The notes under the pieces were generated by a model. The model did not search any database and was not told the origin of the DNA. It saw nothing but the letters and a program-made list of their open reading frames with translations. A DNA stretch of 64,000 nucleotides, taken from Thermohalobacter berrensis. GTDB lineage: Bacteria > Bacillota > Clostridia > Tissierellales > Thermohalobacteraceae. Position 1 is the stretch's first letter, and each line of letters starts with the position of its first letter. The position numbers were made by a program, and so were the translations under genes. The stretch lies in NCBI RefSeq assembly GCF_003609645.1, contig NZ_MCIB01000001.1, forward strand, positions 186,001 through 250,000, read 5' to 3'. Positions 13,845 through 27,563 of this stretch are shown piece after piece.

Positions 13845-15878
13845 ATGAAGTTTGGTGATATCATAGTAGCAATGTCTATAATTGCCATAGTAATAATTAT
13901 AATAATACCGGTACCAAAAAGTGCTCTAGACATACTTTTAAGCTTTAATATTTCTTTGGCTTTATTAATTCTATTAATTTCTATGTATATTGAGGATTCC
14001 CTTCAAATTTCTATATTTCCTTCACTTTTACTGATTACTACATTATTCAGATTATCATTAAACATTTCTACTACAAGATATATTCTATCAGAGGCAGATG
14101 CAGGTAAGGTAATTGAGGCTTTTGGAGAATTTGTGATAAGAGGGAATGCTGTAGTTGGTTTTATTATATTTCTTATAATTGTTATTATACAATTTATTGT
14201 TATAACAAAGGGTGCAGAAAGGGTAGCAGAAGTTGCAGCAAGATTCACATTAGATGCTATGCCAGGAAAACAGATGGCTATAGATGCTGACTTAAACTCA
14301 GGATTAATCTCTGAAGAAGAGGCACGACAAAGAAGAAAAGAAATACAAAGAGAAGCAGACTTTTATGGTGCCATGGATGGTGCCAGTAAGTTTGTAAAAG
14401 GTGATGCTATTGCATCAATAGTTATTACCATTATAAATATAGCAGCTGGTTTTACAATTGGAATAATAATTAATAATATGTCTTTTTTAGAAGCTCTAAA
14501 TAAATATGTTTTATTAACAGTTGGAGATGGTTTAGTAAGCCAGATACCAGCTCTTTTAATATCTACGGCTACTGGAATTGTAGTTACTAGAGCTGCTTCT
14601 GACACAAATATGGGAAATGATGTTTTAAAACAGCTTTTTGCTTATCATAGAGTTATGTTCATCATAGGAAGTGTTTTATTAGTATTAGGATTACTAACTC
14701 CTTTACCTAATATACCTTATATTATATTATCTTCATCATTCTTTCTAATTGGATATCAAATTCATTCAAGATTAAAAATTTCCACAGAAGAGGAAAAAGA
14801 AATTGCTGAAGAAGCTGAAGTAGAGGAAGTTAAGAGTCCAGAAAATGTTATGTCTTTACTAAAAGTAGAAGATATAGAACTAGAATTTGGTTATGGAATA
14901 ATACCTTTGGCAGATGCAAATCAAGGTGGAGACCTATTAGATAGAATAGTAATGATAAGAAGACAGATTGCCCTTGAGTTAGGAATTATAGTACCTATGG
15001 TTAGATTAAGAGATAATATACAACTAAATCCAAATGAATATGTAGTAAAAATAAAGGGTATAGAAATATCTAAAGGAGAAGTTTTATTTGATCATTATTT
15101 AGCAATGAATCCAGGTACAGCTGAAGGCGATATTGAGGGGGTTGAAACAACAGAACCTGCATTTGGCCTTCCAGCTAAATGGATTACTGAAGAAGAAAGA
15201 GAAAAAGCAGAGGTATTAGGATATACAGTTGTTGATCCACCTTCTGTAATATCTACCCATTTAACCGAAATAATAAAAAGGCATGCTCATGAATTACTAA
15301 ATAGACAGGATGTTAAAAAGCTAATTGATAACGTAAAAGAAGAACATCCTGCATTAGTTGATGAGGTTGTACCGAATGTTCTTTCGATTGGAGAAATACA
15401 AAAGGTGCTTGCCAATTTATTAAAAGAGAATATTTCAATAAGGGATATGGTTACTATATTAGAAACTCTTGCAGATAACGCACCTATAACTAGAGATCCT
15501 GATATATTGACAGAACATGTACGACAAAGCATGTCTAGATATATTACAAAGAAATATACTCAAGGGAATAAAATTAATGTAATAACTTTAGATGGTGAAC
15601 TTGAACAACTTATAATGGAATCTATTAATCAAACAGAAACTGGAACTCATTTAACGTTAGATCCTAATACAATACAAAGAATTTTAAATAGCCTTTCTAT
15701 GAACGTAGAAAAGTTTACTTCCATCGGAGAACAACCTATAGTTTTAACTGCGCCAATTGTTAGAATATATTTTAAACGAATTACTGAACATGCAATAAAA
15801 GACCTAATTGTATTGTCTTATAATGAATTAGAACCTTCAGTTGAAATTCAATCCTTAGGGATGGTGACATTAAAATGA
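13845..15878 (+). CDS. flhA: FlhA, export apparatus membrane protein
   Basis: 677 residues. The N-terminal half contains about eight membrane segments and the FHIPEP signature region (RFTLDAMPGKQMAIDADLNS, then GLISEEEARQRRKE). The C-terminal cytoplasmic half (about 330-677) docks chaperone-substrate complexes. FlhA forms the nonameric ring that uses proton motive force for export. The TGA stop overlaps the flhF ATG (ATGA), so the two are probably translationally coupled. Length is normal for Firmicutes. Confidence 0.97.
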   Translation: MKFGDIIVAMSIIAIVIIIIIPVPKSALDILLSFNISLALLILLISMYIEDSLQISIFPSLLLITTLFRLSLNISTTRYILSEADAGKVIEAFGEFVIRGNAVVGFIIFLIIVIIQFIVITKGAERVAEVAARFTLDAMPGKQMAIDADLNSGLISEEEARQRRKEIQREADFYGAMDGASKFVKGDAIASIVITIINIAAGFTIGIIINNMSFLEALNKYVLLTVGDGLVSQIPALLISTATGIVVTRAASDTNMGNDVLKQLFAYHRVMFIIGSVLLVLGLLTPLPNIPYIILSSSFFLIGYQIHSRLKISTEEEKEIAEEAEVEEVKSPENVMSLLKVEDIELEFGYGIIPLADANQGGDLLDRIVMIRRQIALELGIIVPMVRLRDNIQLNPNEYVVKIKGIEISKGEVLFDHYLAMNPGTAEGDIEGVETTEPAFGLPAKWITEEEREKAEVLGYTVVDPPSVISTHLTEIIKRHAHELLNRQDVKKLIDNVKEEHPALVDEVVPNVLSIGEIQKVLANLLKENISIRDMVTILETLADNAPITRDPDILTEHVRQSMSRYITKKYTQGNKINVITLDGELEQLIMESINQTETGTHLTLDPNTIQRILNSLSMNVEKFTSIGEQPIVLTAPIVRIYFKRITEHAIKDLIVLSYNELEPSVEIQSLGMVTLK

Positions 15879-17014
15879 AAATAAAAAGGTTTATAGGGAA
15901 GACAAATCAAGAAGCAATGTATAAGCTAAAAAAAGAATTAGGAGAAAATGCTGTTATCCTCCACACAAGGAAAATTAGAAAGCCAGGAATAATGGGGTTT
16001 ATAAAGAAACCTATTATTGAGATAGTTGCAGCAGTAGATGACAACAAGGCTAAAGAAGAGTATATGAAGAAGGAAATAAAGACTAAACAATTGAATGATA
16101 ATATAATAATTAATAAGCAAAATAATAATCTATCTAATATAGATTTAGAAATTAAACGTTTAAGAAATGAGATGAAGTTTTTCATGAGTCAGATCGGTAA
16201 AAATGAACAGTCATTACCATCTAAACTGGAAAAGTATAGAGAAATTATGGAACAAAATGGCATTGAAGACAATATAGCTATAAAGATATTAAAAGATATA
16301 AATGATAAGGTAAACATTAATATAATGGATGAGAAAACAATTAAGGATGTAATACTATACAACATAAATGAATATTTAGGAAAGTCTTATCCTTTAGTTC
16401 CAGCTAATAATCAAAAAGTAATATTTTTTATAGGTCCAACTGGTGTTGGTAAAACTACAACTTTGGCGAAAATTGCTGCACAATTATGTATAAAGAACCA
16501 GAATGAAGTCGGTCTAATTACAACAGATACTTATAGAATAGCAGCAGTGGACCAGTTAAAAGCATATAGTGAAATATTAAGCATACCATTAAAAGTTGTA
16601 TATGATTTAAAGGAAATTTATAAAGTTTTGGCGAATTTAAAAGATAAGAGATTTATTTTAGTCGATACTGCTGGAAGAAACCACAAGGATAAAAACAAAT
16701 TAAATGAAATTAAGGAACTTTTACAAACTGTAAATAACAAAGAGGTTTATCTAGTGTTAAGTGCAACTACTGATTTTAACAATATTAAAACAATTTTAGA
16801 TAGATATAGTTTTATAAAAGATTATAAAATAATATTTACAAAGCTAGATGAAGCTGATAATTTAGGAATTATTTTAAATACAAAATTTTATGCTAATAAA
16901 CCACTCTCATATGTTACGATGGGACAAAATGTTCCTGAGGATATAGAATTAGCAAACATACAAAAATTAAGCAAAACATTGATTGGAGAGTTAGGATATG
17001 AGAGACCAAGCTGA
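15875..17014 (+). CDS. flhF: FlhF, SRP-type GTPase for flagellar placement
   Basis: 379 residues. A short basic N-terminal B-domain (AMYKLKKELGENAVILHTRK) precedes an SRP-family N-G domain: P-loop FFIGPTGVGKTTTLAKIAA, LITTDTYRIAAVDQLKAYS, the G3 motif LVDTAGR and G4 FTKLDEAD. FlhF dimerises on GTP at the membrane and specifies where basal bodies form. It overlaps flhG by 17 bases; FlhG stimulates its GTPase, and the pairing is the usual one. Confidence 0.96.
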   Translation: MKIKRFIGKTNQEAMYKLKKELGENAVILHTRKIRKPGIMGFIKKPIIEIVAAVDDNKAKEEYMKKEIKTKQLNDNIIINKQNNNLSNIDLEIKRLRNEMKFFMSQIGKNEQSLPSKLEKYREIMEQNGIEDNIAIKILKDINDKVNINIMDEKTIKDVILYNINEYLGKSYPLVPANNQKVIFFIGPTGVGKTTTLAKIAAQLCIKNQNEVGLITTDTYRIAAVDQLKAYSEILSIPLKVVYDLKEIYKVLANLKDKRFILVDTAGRNHKDKNKLNEIKELLQTVNNKEVYLVLSATTDFNNIKTILDRYSFIKDYKIIFTKLDEADNLGIILNTKFYANKPLSYVTMGQNVPEDIELANIQKLSKTLIGELGYERPS

Positions 17015-17904: not shown

Positions 17905-18564
17905 ATGGCATCTAAATTCAGCTTACCTAAGGTAGGAGATAAAGTTGATATAAAAGTTTTGGATCCATCATATAAAGAAAAATATGTTAGTCAAATATTG
18001 AATGTTTTAGATGAATATACCTATGAAATAAGCGGTCCTATCCATAAAAGAAATATTGTACCTTTATCATTGGGATTACAAATAAAAGTAATGTATTGTA
18101 AGGAACAAAAAGGTCGGTTTATGTTTAAGGCTAAAATTATTGAAAGAGAGAAAAAACCAATATATAAGATAAAAATTGAGAGGTTAAACAAGATAAAAAG
18201 ATTGCAAGAAAGAAATTTTTATCGATTACCAATAATGATTAAAGTAATAAAACAATTTCAGAACATGAAAAACAAAGAAATAGAGAAAGAAGAGTGTATA
18301 ACTGAAGATATTAGTGGTGGTGGTTTAAGAATTTTATGTAACAAAAAGCATAATCTTGATGACATAGTATTATGTAAATTTACTATGAATGGGATTGAAT
18401 TAAGCTTAAAATGTCAAGTTGTTAGAACTGAAGATTGTGATAATAAAAATTATAAGTACTCCTTAGGAATGAAGTTTATAGATATAACAGATTATCAACG
18501 TGAAAAGATAATAAAGTTTATCTTTGATGAACAGAGAAAACTTAGACAAAAAGGATTGATATAA
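17905..18564 (+). CDS. ycgR: YcgR-type PilZ protein, cyclic-di-GMP motor brake
   Basis: 219 residues with an N-terminal YcgR-like barrel (about 1-90) and a C-terminal PilZ domain. The c-di-GMP contacts are visible: an RxxxR motif in QERNFYRLP (about residue 100) and DISGGGLRIL (D/NxSxxG). In relatives, the c-di-GMP-loaded protein binds the stator or rotor and slows swimming. Position between flhG and cheB supports a motility role. The motif set is complete, so ligand binding is likely. GGGGGAAACTAGCTT lies before the ATG. Confidence 0.9.
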   Translation: MASKFSLPKVGDKVDIKVLDPSYKEKYVSQILNVLDEYTYEISGPIHKRNIVPLSLGLQIKVMYCKEQKGRFMFKAKIIEREKKPIYKIKIERLNKIKRLQERNFYRLPIMIKVIKQFQNMKNKEIEKEECITEDISGGGLRILCNKKHNLDDIVLCKFTMNGIELSLKCQVVRTEDCDNKNYKYSLGMKFIDITDYQREKIIKFIFDEQRKLRQKGLI

Positions 18565-23264: not shown

Positions 23265-24011
23265 ATGACAAAAGATGAATTATGGAAAAAATATAAAGAT
23301 AGCAATGATATAGAACTTAAAAAAAGACTTATTGAAGAGTATATTGATTTAGTAAAGATAGTAGCTGGGAGAATGTATAATTATTATGGTGGGAATGTAG
23401 AATATGATGATTTATTAAGTTATGGTGTATTTGGATTAATAGATGCAATTGAAAAATTTGATATCAATAGAAATTTAAAATTTGAAACATATGCTCAAAT
23501 TAGGATAAGAGGTGCAATAGTAGATAATTTAAGAAAATTAGATTGGATTCCTAGGTCTTTAAGACAAAAAACTAAGGAAATTGAGAAGGCAATTAATAAA
23601 TTAGAAAATAAATTACAAAGAAATGTTACAATAAAAGATATTGCAGAAGAATTAGATAAAGATGAAAGTGAAATTAAGACAATTTTAGGACAAACTTCAA
23701 CTTTTAATTTAGTATCATTAGAAGAAATCCTTACAGAAAGAGGAGAATATAATATTTATAGCAAATCCTATGATACACCAGAAACTATTTACCAAAATAA
23801 AGAGATTAAGAAAATTTTAAAAGAAGTTATTGATTCTCTACCTGAGAGAGAAAAACTTATTATTTCACTTTACTATTATGATGAATTAACCTATAAAGAG
23901 ATTGGGGAAGTATTAAACCTTTCTGAATCGAGGATTTCTCAACTTCATAGCAAGATTATACTTCAAATAAAAAATAATTTGAATAAAATAGGTGTTAATA
24001 ATTATAATTAA
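23265..24011 (+). CDS. sigD: Flagellar sigma factor SigD/FliA
   Basis: 248 residues with sigma regions in order: region 2 (about 20-95, including YDDLLSYGVFGLIDAIEKFD and FETYAQIRIRGAIVDNLRK), region 3 (about 105-150) and region 4 with the -35-binding helix-turn-helix (LTYKEIGEVLNLSESRISQL). The RGAIVDNLRKLDW segment marks the flagellar/FliA branch of sigma-70. It directs late flagellar and chemotaxis genes. The position at the end of the che genes is as in B. subtilis. AGGGGGT precedes the ATG. Confidence 0.96.
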   Translation: MTKDELWKKYKDSNDIELKKRLIEEYIDLVKIVAGRMYNYYGGNVEYDDLLSYGVFGLIDAIEKFDINRNLKFETYAQIRIRGAIVDNLRKLDWIPRSLRQKTKEIEKAINKLENKLQRNVTIKDIAEELDKDESEIKTILGQTSTFNLVSLEEILTERGEYNIYSKSYDTPETIYQNKEIKKILKEVIDSLPEREKLIISLYYYDELTYKEIGEVLNLSESRISQLHSKIILQIKNNLNKIGVNNYN

Positions 24012-24038: not shown

Positions 24039-25853
24039 ATGGGGGGAAACCACATTATTGTTGAAGGAACAAGCTTGGATGATTTAATTAAGGAAGGATT
24101 AGAAAAATTAAATATAACAGAAGAAAACGCTAATGTTAAAATTTTACAAGAAGGAAAAAAGGTTTTGGGGGTTTGGGTAAAAAAATATAAGGTTAAAATT
24201 TCAAGAAAAAAAAATGATAACATTATTGACAATGAGATAATTAAAGAAATTGATAACATGAACTTTAAATTAAAAACATATTCTATTGACTATTTAGATG
24301 ATGGTGTTTATCTAAATGTTATTAGGAATAATAAGGACTCTAATGCTCTCTATGAAGAAATCTTAGATACTATAAAGAGAAAGAGAATAGAAGATTATAG
24401 TGAGAATAAAATTATAAAGGCCATTAAAGAAAATGTTGAACAGCCTGTTAAAATTGCACCTAAACAAGAAAAGAAAAAGATAGATGCTGATATTATTATA
24501 GAAATAGAAGACAATGATATGAAAGCTTATATGACATTAATTCCACCTGAAGATGGTGAGGATTTAAGTTATGATAATGCTTTAAAAATAGTTGAGCAAA
24601 AGATTAAATTTGGTATAAATTATAATCATATGAAAGACATTATAAATAAAAAACAATACTATAAAAGAACATTAATAGCTGAAGGTAAACTTCCTATTGA
24701 TGGAAAAGATGGCTATATAAAATATTTTTTTGATACAGAAAAAAAATACATACCCAAAGAATTAGAAGATGGATCTGTTGATTTTAAAAATCTACAGCTT
24801 ATTAACAACGTAAAGAAAGGAGATATATTAGCAGAAATAGTCCCTCCTACAGAAGGAGATGCTGGCTACACAGTTACAGGTAAAGTATTAAAACATAAAA
24901 AAGGCAAATCTAAAAAGGTAAAATTAGGTAAGAATGTAGAGTATTCTGAAGATGGAAATAAAGTTATTTCATTAATAGATGGTGAGGTTATACTGAAAAA
25001 TGGCAGGGTACATGTAGAAAAGATACATAAAATAAATGAAGATGTTGATAATTCTACTGGCAATATTCAATTTAATGGTAGTATTAAGATAAATGGTAAT
25101 GTAAAAACGGGTTTTAAAGTAAAGGCAATTGGTGATATTGAAATACAAGGTGTTGTAGAGGGAGCTTTAATTGAAAGTGAAGGTAATATTATTTTAAAAA
25201 GAGGAATACAAGGTCATCATAAAGGAAAATTAAATTCTAAAGGAAATATTATAGCTAAATATGTTGAAAATGCTTTTATAGAATGTAATGGGTTAGTACA
25301 AGCTGATGCAATAATGCATAGTGATATTTCTAGTAATGATACAGTTGAGGCTTTAGGAAGAAAGGGGCTAATTGTAGGAGGGACCTGTAGAGCAGCAAAA
25401 GAAGTAAGGGCTAAAACTATTGGTTCTAGTATGTCAACATTAACTACTATAGAAGTTGGAATAGACCCAAATCTAAAGACTAAATACGAGAATTTAAAAG
25501 AAGAGAATAAAAAAATAAAAAATAATATAGATAAGGTAAATAAGTCTATCCTTTTATTAAAAAGATTAAATGATAATAATAGGCTTACTAAGGATAAAAA
25601 AGAATTACTAATAAAATTTATTAAAACTAAAAAGGTTTTAGATGAACAATATAAGAAAGTGAAAAAAGAATTAGAAGAAATTGAGTATAGAATAGAATGT
25701 TTATCTAAAGGAAAAATTAAAGTAAGTAATGTAGTATATCCAGGGGTAAAAATAGTAATTGGGAACAGTACAATGCATGTAAAAGAAGAGGTTAAAGCAT
25801 GCACTATATATAGGGAAGATGGGGAGATAAAAATAGCTCATTATAAGGAGTAA
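24039..25853 (+). CDS. fapA: FapA/DUF342 flagellar-assembly protein with Jag-N-like head
   Basis: 604 residues. Residues ~5-55 (IIVEGTSLDDLIKEGLEKLN, then EENANVKILQEGKKVLGVWV) resemble the Jag-N module of the KhpB/Jag RNA-binding protein. A middle domain (about 150-275) and a Gly-rich beta-helix (about 330-480; KINGNVKTGFKVKAIGDIEI) match FapA/DUF342. A Lys/Glu coiled coil fills ~485-560. FapA of Vibrio is linked to polar flagellum assembly, and DUF342 beta-helices recall bactofilins and MinC; the role here is inferred. No signal peptide or membrane segment is seen. It has GGTGGTGACATC before the ATG. Confidence 0.85.
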   Translation: MGGNHIIVEGTSLDDLIKEGLEKLNITEENANVKILQEGKKVLGVWVKKYKVKISRKKNDNIIDNEIIKEIDNMNFKLKTYSIDYLDDGVYLNVIRNNKDSNALYEEILDTIKRKRIEDYSENKIIKAIKENVEQPVKIAPKQEKKKIDADIIIEIEDNDMKAYMTLIPPEDGEDLSYDNALKIVEQKIKFGINYNHMKDIINKKQYYKRTLIAEGKLPIDGKDGYIKYFFDTEKKYIPKELEDGSVDFKNLQLINNVKKGDILAEIVPPTEGDAGYTVTGKVLKHKKGKSKKVKLGKNVEYSEDGNKVISLIDGEVILKNGRVHVEKIHKINEDVDNSTGNIQFNGSIKINGNVKTGFKVKAIGDIEIQGVVEGALIESEGNIILKRGIQGHHKGKLNSKGNIIAKYVENAFIECNGLVQADAIMHSDISSNDTVEALGRKGLIVGGTCRAAKEVRAKTIGSSMSTLTTIEVGIDPNLKTKYENLKEENKKIKNNIDKVNKSILLLKRLNDNNRLTKDKKELLIKFIKTKKVLDEQYKKVKKELEEIEYRIECLSKGKIKVSNVVYPGVKIVIGNSTMHVKEEVKACTIYREDGEIKIAHYKE

Positions 25854-25866
25854 ATGGGGGAAAGTT

Positions 25867-26184
25867 ATGTCTATCAAACCAATTGATTTACAGGTTAATA
25901 TTTCTAAAACCCAAGAAGCTGCTAAAACTAAGCAACAGGAACAGTTTAAGCATAATAATTATATACATAGTGAGAGGACTAACCTTAATCAAAAAATAAA
26001 AAGAGAACAAAAACAAGTAAATAATACCGATAAGCCTTACAAAATGAGAGCGAACAAAGATAAGGGGAAAGGGAGTAATAATAGGAATAATAAAAAAAGA
26101 AATAAAAATAAGAATAAAAAAAATCAAAAAGAACAAGAAAAGCTTCTAACAGAACTGGGGAACCATATTGATATAAAAATATAA
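25867..26184 (+). CDS. Small highly basic protein of unknown function
   Basis: 105 residues, roughly a third Lys/Arg. The N terminus (MSIKPIDLQVNISKTQEAA) and the C terminus (GNHIDIKI) look constrained, while the middle is a run of Lys, Asn and Arg (RNNKKRNKNKNKKNQKEQ) that is probably disordered. No domain is recognised. A good GGGGGAAAGTT-type site and tight placement between fapA and the SwrB-like gene support it being real. I recall similar short proteins in this slot in other Clostridia, from memory only. It could bind nucleic acid, FapA, or the membrane surface; none is shown. Confidence 0.7.
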   Translation: MSIKPIDLQVNISKTQEAAKTKQQEQFKHNNYIHSERTNLNQKIKREQKQVNNTDKPYKMRANKDKGKGSNNRNNKKRNKNKNKKNQKEQEKLLTELGNHIDIKI

Positions 26185-26198
26185 TTAAGGAGGCAACA

Positions 26199-26657
26199 AT
26201 GTTCGGTATAATATTAATGATAATTGGTATTATTTGTATTACTTTTTCAGTTTTACTCTTTCTTAAGGAAGAAAGAGAACAAGATGAAAAATATAATGAA
26301 ATAAAAAAAATTTATAAAGATATAAATGATTATGCCTTAATCATTGAGGAGATAGCAGACAAGCTAAATGATAAATTAGATTTATATTTATCTAATAACA
26401 ATAAAACGGATGATTCGAATTACAAACATGATTATCCTGATAATCATAATAACCATATAACTAATGAAGATTACATAATAACCAATAACAAAGATATTAA
26501 TAATGTGGAAATAGATGAACATGATAACATTTATAATGAAATAATAAATTTAATGAAATTAGGACTTAATAAACATGAAATAGCCAAAAAATTAGGAAAA
26601 AGCATTAGGGAAATAGATATTATTTTAAAATTAGAAAATAGTAAGAGAAAAAAATAA
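26199..26657 (+). CDS. SwrB/YlxL-like membrane protein (DUF6115-like C terminus)
   Basis: 152 residues. One N-terminal membrane segment (about 2-24, FGIILMIIGIICITFSVLLF) leads to an amphipathic helix, a His/Asn-rich linker (about 65-110), and a C-terminal helix-turn-helix-like tail, NLMKLGLNKHEIAKKLGKSI followed by REIDIILKLE. This layout and the location between sigD and rpsB match SwrB (YlxL) of B. subtilis, which helps activate the flagellar export gate. Overall sequence similarity is low, so the name is by layout and synteny. AAGGAGGCAAC precedes the ATG. Confidence 0.75.
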   Translation: MFGIILMIIGIICITFSVLLFLKEEREQDEKYNEIKKIYKDINDYALIIEEIADKLNDKLDLYLSNNNKTDDSNYKHDYPDNHNNHITNEDYIITNNKDINNVEIDEHDNIYNEIINLMKLGLNKHEIAKKLGKSIREIDIILKLENSKRKK

Positions 26658-26728: not shown

Positions 26729-26757
26729 TTGTCAAATACTAAAAGGTATGATATACT
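26729..26757 (+). promoter_or_regulatory. Promoter for rpsB operon (TTGTCA-N17-TATACT)
   Basis: -35 TTGTCA at 26729-26734, 17-base spacer, -10 TATACT at 26752-26757, with an extended -10 TG at 26749-26750. Start of transcription would be near 26764. It separates the ribosomal genes from the fla/che operon, after which I see no terminator. Confidence 0.85.
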
Positions 26758-26763
26758 ACTTAC

Positions 26764-26849
26764 GGTGAAATCACACACACTTAACGATTCCTAAAGGTGT
26801 GCCTAAATTTAGGTCTTTTAGGAAGATGAGTTGAGTGGAGGAATAACAA
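26764..26849 (+). ncRNA. Structured rpsB 5' leader, possible pseudoknot
   Basis: CACAC (26776-26780) can pair with GTGTG (26797-26801). The enclosed CCTAAA (26790-26795) can pair with TTTAGG (26817-26822), which together give an H-type pseudoknot. A palindrome CCTAAATTTAGG (26802-26813) offers a competing pairing. Position suggests autoregulation by S2, as r-protein leaders often do; that is inference. I do not recognise it as a named RNA family. Confidence 0.5.
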
Positions 26850-26864
26850 AGAGGAGGTGCCATA

Positions 26865-27563
26865 ATGTCAGTACTTAATATGAAACAGCTATTAGAAGCA
26901 GGGGTTCACTTTGGCCATCAAACTAGAAGATGGAATCCTAAGATGGCTCAATACATTTTTACTGAAAGAAATGGAATTTATATTATCGATCTGCAAAAAA
27001 CAGTTCAAAAAGTTGATGAAGCTTATAAGTTTGTAAAAGAACTTATTGAAAATGGTGGACAAATTCTTTTTGTAGGTACAAAAAAACAAGCTCAAGAGTC
27101 TATTGAAAAAGAAGCTAAAAGATGTGGAATGCACTATGTAAATCAAAGATGGCTTGGTGGTATGTTAACAAACTTTAAAACTATAAAAACAAGAATCGAT
27201 AGACTACGTGAATTAGAAAAAATGGAAGAAGACGGAGTTTTTGATGTTTTACCTAAGAAAGAAGTTATTAAGCTAAGACATGAAAGAGAAAGATTAGAGA
27301 AATTCTTAGGTGGAATAAAAGATATGAATAAACTTCCAGATGCAATTTATATAGTGGACCCAAGAAAAGAGAAAATAGCTGTAAAAGAAGCACAGAAGTT
27401 AGGAATTCCAATTGTTGCAATAGTTGATACTAACTGCGATCCTGATGAGGTGGACCATGTTATACCAGGAAATGACGATGCAATAAGAGCAGTTAAGCTA
27501 TTAACAGAAACTATGGCAAACGCTGTGCTTGAAGGTAAACAAGGCGAACAAATGGAAGAATAA
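26865..27563 (+). CDS. rpsB: 30S ribosomal protein S2
   Basis: 232 residues. Typical uS2 sequence from the start ([20 protein letters not shown]), through [14 protein letters not shown], to [20 protein letters not shown] and [13 protein letters not shown]2 bridges head and body of the small subunit and helps bind S1 or mRNA. It opens the rpsB-tsf-pyrH-frr cluster, with its own promoter and leader. The site AGAGGAGGTG is strong. A terminator-like hairpin separates it from tsf. Confidence 0.98.

Follow-up and report, generated by a model that had tools for sequence, protein, structure and literature searches.

SwrB activates the export gate protein FliP in Bacillus subtilis, SwrB suppressors work through the level of FliP and through FliG, and in the available portions of the paper that describes this the protein is called conserved only in Bacillus (PMC4526659). 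In gamma-proteobacteria, FlhF is anchored by FipA, which combines a single membrane helix and a coiled coil with a DUF2802 domain. FlhF binding by this domain requires G110 and L129, and E126 is likewise invariant; the accessible text reports FipA as absent from Bacillus and spirochetes (PMC11620751). A sigma28 sub-module of FapA, 'YjfB' and a 'TM+HTH' protein is also in print, its small protein labelled 'YjfB (an uncharacterized small protein)', and SwrB has 0 occurrences in the available text (Zamba-Campero et al. 2024, PMC11607428). According to the accessible sections of a 2025 review, it is still unclear which spatial cues guide FlhF and FlhG, and with which partners they act, in peritrichous B. 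subtilis (PMC12826062).

The window analyzed here, a stretch of 64,000 nucleotides from Thermohalobacter berrensis (G000:C1:186001-250000), is part of a 2.76 Mb assembly. Between sigD and rpsB it encodes FapA, a small protein (SBP) and a SwrB-family protein (SWB). The open reading frames confirmed the three tightly spaced genes of a preliminary description of the region, with sigD, FapA, SBP and SWB all on the plus strand and separated by successive gaps of 27, 13 and 14 nt. The features are as follows.

15875..17014, plus strand: FlhF, the proposed partner (SRP54 GTPase domain, E=2.4e-42; named from its place after flhA)
23265..24011, plus strand: sigD (sigma28), upstream neighbour (Pfam Sigma70_r2/r3/r4 matches)
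24039..25853, plus strand: FapA, 604 aa, with Jag_N, FapA_N and FapA beta-solenoid (Pfam, above cut-offs)
24060..24203, plus strand: Jag_N domain, FapA residues 8-55 (PF14804, E=4.4e-8)
25867..26184, plus strand: SBP, 105 aa, with an N-terminal helix, a polar linker and a C-terminal IDIKI peptide
26158..26181, plus strand: SBP C-terminal peptide G98-x-x-I-D-I-K-I, common to YjfB (hhalign; YjfB C-termini)
26199..26657, plus strand: SWB, 152 aa, with an N-terminal membrane helix, a coiled coil and an HTH-like tail
26517..26651, plus strand: HTH-like tail, SWB residues 107-151, including G122, E138 and I141
26729..26757, plus strand: promoter-like TTGTCA-17-TATACT ahead of rpsB (promoter-like sites in the region are at chance level in number)
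26865..27563, plus strand: rpsB, downstream neighbour (PF00318, E=1.6e-106)

The first product is a full-length DUF342 (FapA) protein, as had been proposed, with both domains above their Pfam gathering scores (PF03961, 265.9 bits against a cut-off of 31, E=6e-79; PF20250, 168.2 bits against 27, E=1.5e-49) and an additional Jag_N domain that had been overlooked. The rpsB leader (26729-26860) contains, besides the promoter-like site, a short inverted repeat, and a search of Rfam gave no family match anywhere in the window, this leader included. A YcgR-like PilZ protein (17905-18564) is encoded after flhG, the spot where other lineages have FlgV; being of the PilZ/YcgR type, this product was rejected as a FlgV between flhG and sigD.

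Across 199 genomes of the order, FapA is present in 83 and FlhA in 94; FlhA occurs without FapA in 13 genomes and FapA without FlhA in two (G105, G113). The SBP profile finds one gene each in 54 of the 199, with an extra weak second match in G104, and G105 alone among these 54 is without FlhA. The 105 genomes without FlhA thus contain FapA twice and SBP once. G105 is 78% complete, FapA of G113 is interrupted by a contig end, and at both loci cheD and sigD still stand beside the trio genes, which makes a missing flhA contig likelier than retention in a non-motile organism. The preliminary description had considered that the trio might fail to co-occur in other genomes or might be kept in non-motile species; instead it is widespread in the order and the phylum and tracks FlhA, and the exceptional loci retain cheD and sigD. 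The trio is real, conserved and flagellar.

All 86 places at which FapA occurs in the order were read. At 57 of them FapA occupies the sigD slot and the downstream region could be read; SBP is the next gene in 52 of the 57 and SWB is present in all, so the arrangement of the trio is not a matter of chance. The five sigD-slot places without SBP are L023 and L061-L064. The other places comprise one upstream half of a split gene (L073, with L093), one cut gene (L092), six places away from sigD, 19 with a different order and two second copies. Those of the different-order places that were read fully show flhA-sigD and then FapA-cheC-cheD, with no SBP and no SWB. The second copies (L094 in G008, L095 in G013) lie away from the flagellar genes. 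Among order genomes without FapA, two have kept SBP and SWB (L105, L108) and two SWB alone (L097, L098).

Of 398 phylum genomes, 159 contain SBP, and 40 of these loci, picked to span families, were read. There, sigD adjoins SBP in 40, FapA in 34 and SWB in 32, not counting L158, where the next gene resembles SWB by eye. The neighbourhood survey suggested in the preliminary description has returned a conserved sigD-FapA-SBP-SWB order in both samples. The SWB profile has matches in 272 of the 398 genomes, a count that is an upper bound only, because unrelated HTH proteins match the profile too. In many genomes SWB is followed by a further small membrane protein, which may be a fourth member of the module. 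Its N-terminal helix is rich in glycine, and several of these proteins carry an 'RA..LGM'-like motif; it is encoded right after SWB at L183-L189, L193, L199 and L200, and at most 400 nt after sigD at L096 and L101.

The relationship of SWB to SwrB was examined with profile A2 (46 rows, 155 positions), which includes none of the named Bacillaceae loci. Eighty such loci were fetched with a SigD query, and their 4406 ORFs were searched with A2. The gene before rpsB matches in 80 of 80 loci, and SwrB of B. spizizenii does so with E=4e-16 among the 4406 ORFs, in an alignment that spans positions 12-150 of the 155 in the profile. SWB also lies in the slot of the SwrB family, downstream of sigD and upstream of rpsB. 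By this profile evidence SWB, described earlier as SwrB-like, is a SwrB homologue, and the SwrB family reaches beyond Bacillus; no statement on a wider SwrB family was found in the available text of PMC4526659, PMC12153297, PMC13344023, PMC11620751 and PMC10746217. The Pfam family DUF6115 (PF19610) is matched at E<=0.01 by 46 of 46 A2 rows and its cut-off is exceeded in 42 of the 199 order genomes; SWB of the window (20.7 bits) and B. spizizenii SwrB (26.3 bits) fall below its gathering score of 27 bits. The AlphaFold2 model of SWB (pLDDT 85.7) has an N-terminal helix at residues 2-71 and a confident three-helix tail at 107-151, in line with the HTH-like tail noted before.

The Bacillaceae loci differ in what precedes swrB. 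Forty-six of the 80, including those of B. spizizenii, B. tequilensis and B. inaquosorum, read sigD-swrB-rpsB, 20 read sigD-SBP-swrB-rpsB, 13 hold the full trio, and one has FapA and swrB without SBP. On a quick tree of SigD and RpsB (89 rows, 30 of 82 inner branches unresolved), FapA changes at least six times and SBP at least nine times, counts that alone give no direction, and full-trio rows are found among the Bacillaceae and in every outgroup row; a paired test of FapA against SBP had too few independent changes. At L234 a 620-nt gap between sigD and swrB contains stop-broken SBP-like fragments, and L275 holds a remnant ORF of the SBP gene, as would be expected of an ongoing loss. We read this pattern as repeated loss of FapA and SBP in the relatives of B. 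subtilis. That swrB alone fills the B. subtilis slot, as had been stated, agrees with these relatives, but it is the trio that is widespread, and the B. subtilis slot is the reduced form.

These partial slots bear on whether the three genes work together at all. If they were mere neighbours in a long flagellar operon, with their order resulting from co-expression with sigD and no joint work, one or another would be expected to occur alone, as is the case for SBP without FapA (L105, L108 and 20 of 80 Bacillaceae), FapA without SBP (L023, L061-L064 and L275), SWB alone (46 of 80 Bacillaceae) and SBP without SWB (7 of 40 phylum loci, L158 left out). Nevertheless, the sigD-FapA-SBP-SWB order is held across the phylum despite differing surrounding genes, and among Bacillaceae it is rare for FapA to occur without SBP (1 of 80), so that we hold mere adjacency to be unlikely, although it keeps appreciable weight. 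The three genes are not an obligate unit, given that FapA and SBP each occur without the other and SBP without SWB; that they jointly serve to mature or place the basal body, as first suggested, remains plausible.

The tail of SWB shows a likeness to FipA. Of the 46 A2 rows, 44 have the spacing G-x15-E, and 39 of these 44 have L, I, V or M at E+3; the Bacillaceae rows (53 of the 80 loci) have G-x15-E in 53 of 53 and L at E+3 in 53 of 53. In the window, G122, E138 and I141 of SWB correspond to G110, E126 and L129 of FipA. DUF2802 (PF10975) is matched at E<=0.01 by 22 of 46 A2 rows, while SWB of the window (18.2 bits) and the best of ten proteins (25.0 bits) remain below the gathering score of 33.5 bits, and plain HTH families also match SWB-family tails. 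SWB may thus be a Gram-positive cousin of FipA. A literature search for SwrB together with FipA gave the FipA paper alone (PMC11620751); its three mentions of SwrB fall outside the main text and may belong to review material, where the two proteins may already have been compared.

An HTH-like tail could also bind DNA, making SWB a membrane-tethered regulator of flagellar promoters or a DNA anchor near basal bodies. Foldseek matched the HTH part of SWB alone and found nothing at E<0.001, its best tail matches being DNA-binding HTHs (NarL, RcsB, KorB), and some SWB members match HTH_7, HTH_23 or HTH_38. However, the most conserved tail residues (G122, I128, A129, E138) include the pair spaced as in the FlhF-binding domain of FipA, and SwrB suppressors, as described in the available part of PMC4526659, act via the FliP level and FliG and not via a DNA target. 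DNA binding is hence quite improbable in our estimation, and a protein-docking tail remains the preferred reading.

If SWB docks FlhF, the two might be expected together. The slot after flhA was readable in 88 of the 94 FlhA-bearing order genomes, and FlhF was scored there: both proteins are present in 63 genomes, both are absent in 24, and FlhF is alone in one, G037, where the protein in the slot matches the SWB family weakly (E=0.003). This co-occurrence is not significant by itself, because FlhF changed only three times on the SigD tree (SWB four times), and the paired test on supported branches was unable to reach significance because it had two pairs only. In the flhF-less genomes that were read, sigD follows flhA immediately, and in three of the 24 no FlhF was found in the 17 kb upstream of flhA. 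At L068-L091, L100, L103, L104, L106, L107 and L315, sigD lies directly after flhA with no flhF or flhG between, and there is no SWB and no SBP. Two observations speak against the link: at L161, L170 and L176, flhF, flhG and SBP are present and SWB is absent, and in B. subtilis mutation of swrB but not of flhF raises basal-body mobility, according to the accessible part of PMC12153297.

SBP had no match over cut-off in Pfam or NCBIfam. AlphaFold2 predicts one confident helix at residues 5-66 (best at 11-50) and low confidence for the remainder, and the conserved positions are P5, D7, V51 and, at the C-terminus, G98, D102 and I103, whereas neither the linker nor its charge is conserved. The Lys/Arg-rich composition noted earlier holds for SBP of the window, with a net charge of +16, but not for the family, since this charge is zero or below in 9 of 48 relatives; a nucleic-acid-binding role, considered on grounds of basicity, was rejected because the charge is not conserved. 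The view that the protein has no assigned role agrees with 'uncharacterized' in print, although it is already mentioned there as 'YjfB' (PMC11607428, in its available text).

YjfB (PF14070, YjfB_motility) is, like SBP, small and ends in a peptide of the G-x-x-I-D-I-K-I type. No N-terminal homology to YjfB was found, and PF14070 is not among the families hit by the 48 SBP rows at E<=0.1. The Pfam model instead finds a separate YjfB gene in the same genome (L038, G000:C12:122105-122278) that has the same C-terminal peptide. SBP bears the G..ID.. peptide of the YjfB C-terminus, other YjfB proteins ending alike, and hhalign of SBP against the YjfB profile covers the last 20 columns only (probability 76%, E=2.3e-5). 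We therefore rejected SBP as plain YjfB; with the alignment confined to these columns, the profiles indicate that SBP and YjfB share a C-terminal peptide (G..IDIKI). The corresponding DNA pattern has two hits in its own genome (SBP and YjfB) and one control hit, and is weak evidence alone because control columns hit 0-6 times per genome in 150 genomes. Being small, helical and disordered, encoded among flagellar genes and endowed with YjfB's C-terminal peptide, SBP could be a flagellar substrate (exported, or of the rod stage) or the chaperone of one, rather than an adaptor, which we consider improbable as no known substrate family in Pfam or NCBIfam matches it.

We propose, with confidence evenly divided for and against, that the trio is a sigma28-linked module for basal-body maturation in which SWB docks FlhF, SBP is an adaptor and FapA a scaffold. 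SWB would be a coiled coil anchored in the membrane, with a C-terminal HTH-like domain that serves in protein docking, most likely of the placement GTPase FlhF, by analogy with its look-alike FipA in gamma-proteobacteria. It would thereby connect the nascent basal body placed by FlhF with the step that SwrB carries out in B. subtilis, activation of the FliP export gate. SBP would be a short adaptor whose N-terminal helix binds one partner, while its C-terminal IDIKI peptide would occupy a docking site that YjfB also uses, and FapA would be a cytoplasmic scaffold that can be lost.

A broader proposal, which we advance tentatively and regard as somewhat less than even in probability, is that SwrB, the Firmicutes TM+HTH proteins and FipA form one family of FlhF anchors that couples FlhF to the FliP gate and so licenses the placed basal body, with SBP and YjfB competing for or sharing a docking site via their C-terminal peptide. 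In the available texts, SwrB (PMC4526659) and FipA (PMC11620751) are each described as limited to one lineage. Should they be one family, point mutants of the G and L residues would test the contact between SwrB and FlhF in B. subtilis. This Gram-positive model is without two parts, FapA and SBP, of a phylum-wide module, and these parts therefore need study elsewhere, for example in Cytobacillus-type Bacillaceae.

Compared with SwrB of B. subtilis as described in the accessible parts of PMC4526659, SWB shares the sigD-rpsB slot, the N-terminal membrane helix and the HTH-like tail, and the profile match spans nearly the whole length; the difference is that FapA and SBP stand alongside here, whereas the B. 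subtilis group is without both at this slot. With FipA (PMC11620751, as far as available) it has in common one membrane helix, a coiled coil, a C-terminal G-x15-E-x2-L and a gene near flhF, flhG and a sigma gene, while SWB falls below the Pfam cut-off for DUF2802. The sub-module of PMC11607428 has, per its accessible text, the same three kinds of protein beside sigma28; in contrast to it, CheD is encoded ahead of sigD here, a PilZ protein follows flhG, and the small protein fails the Pfam YjfB model. The trio itself was already known, and what is new is its link to SwrB, the reduced slot of B. subtilis, the distinction of the small protein from Pfam YjfB, and a possible link to FipA and FlhF.
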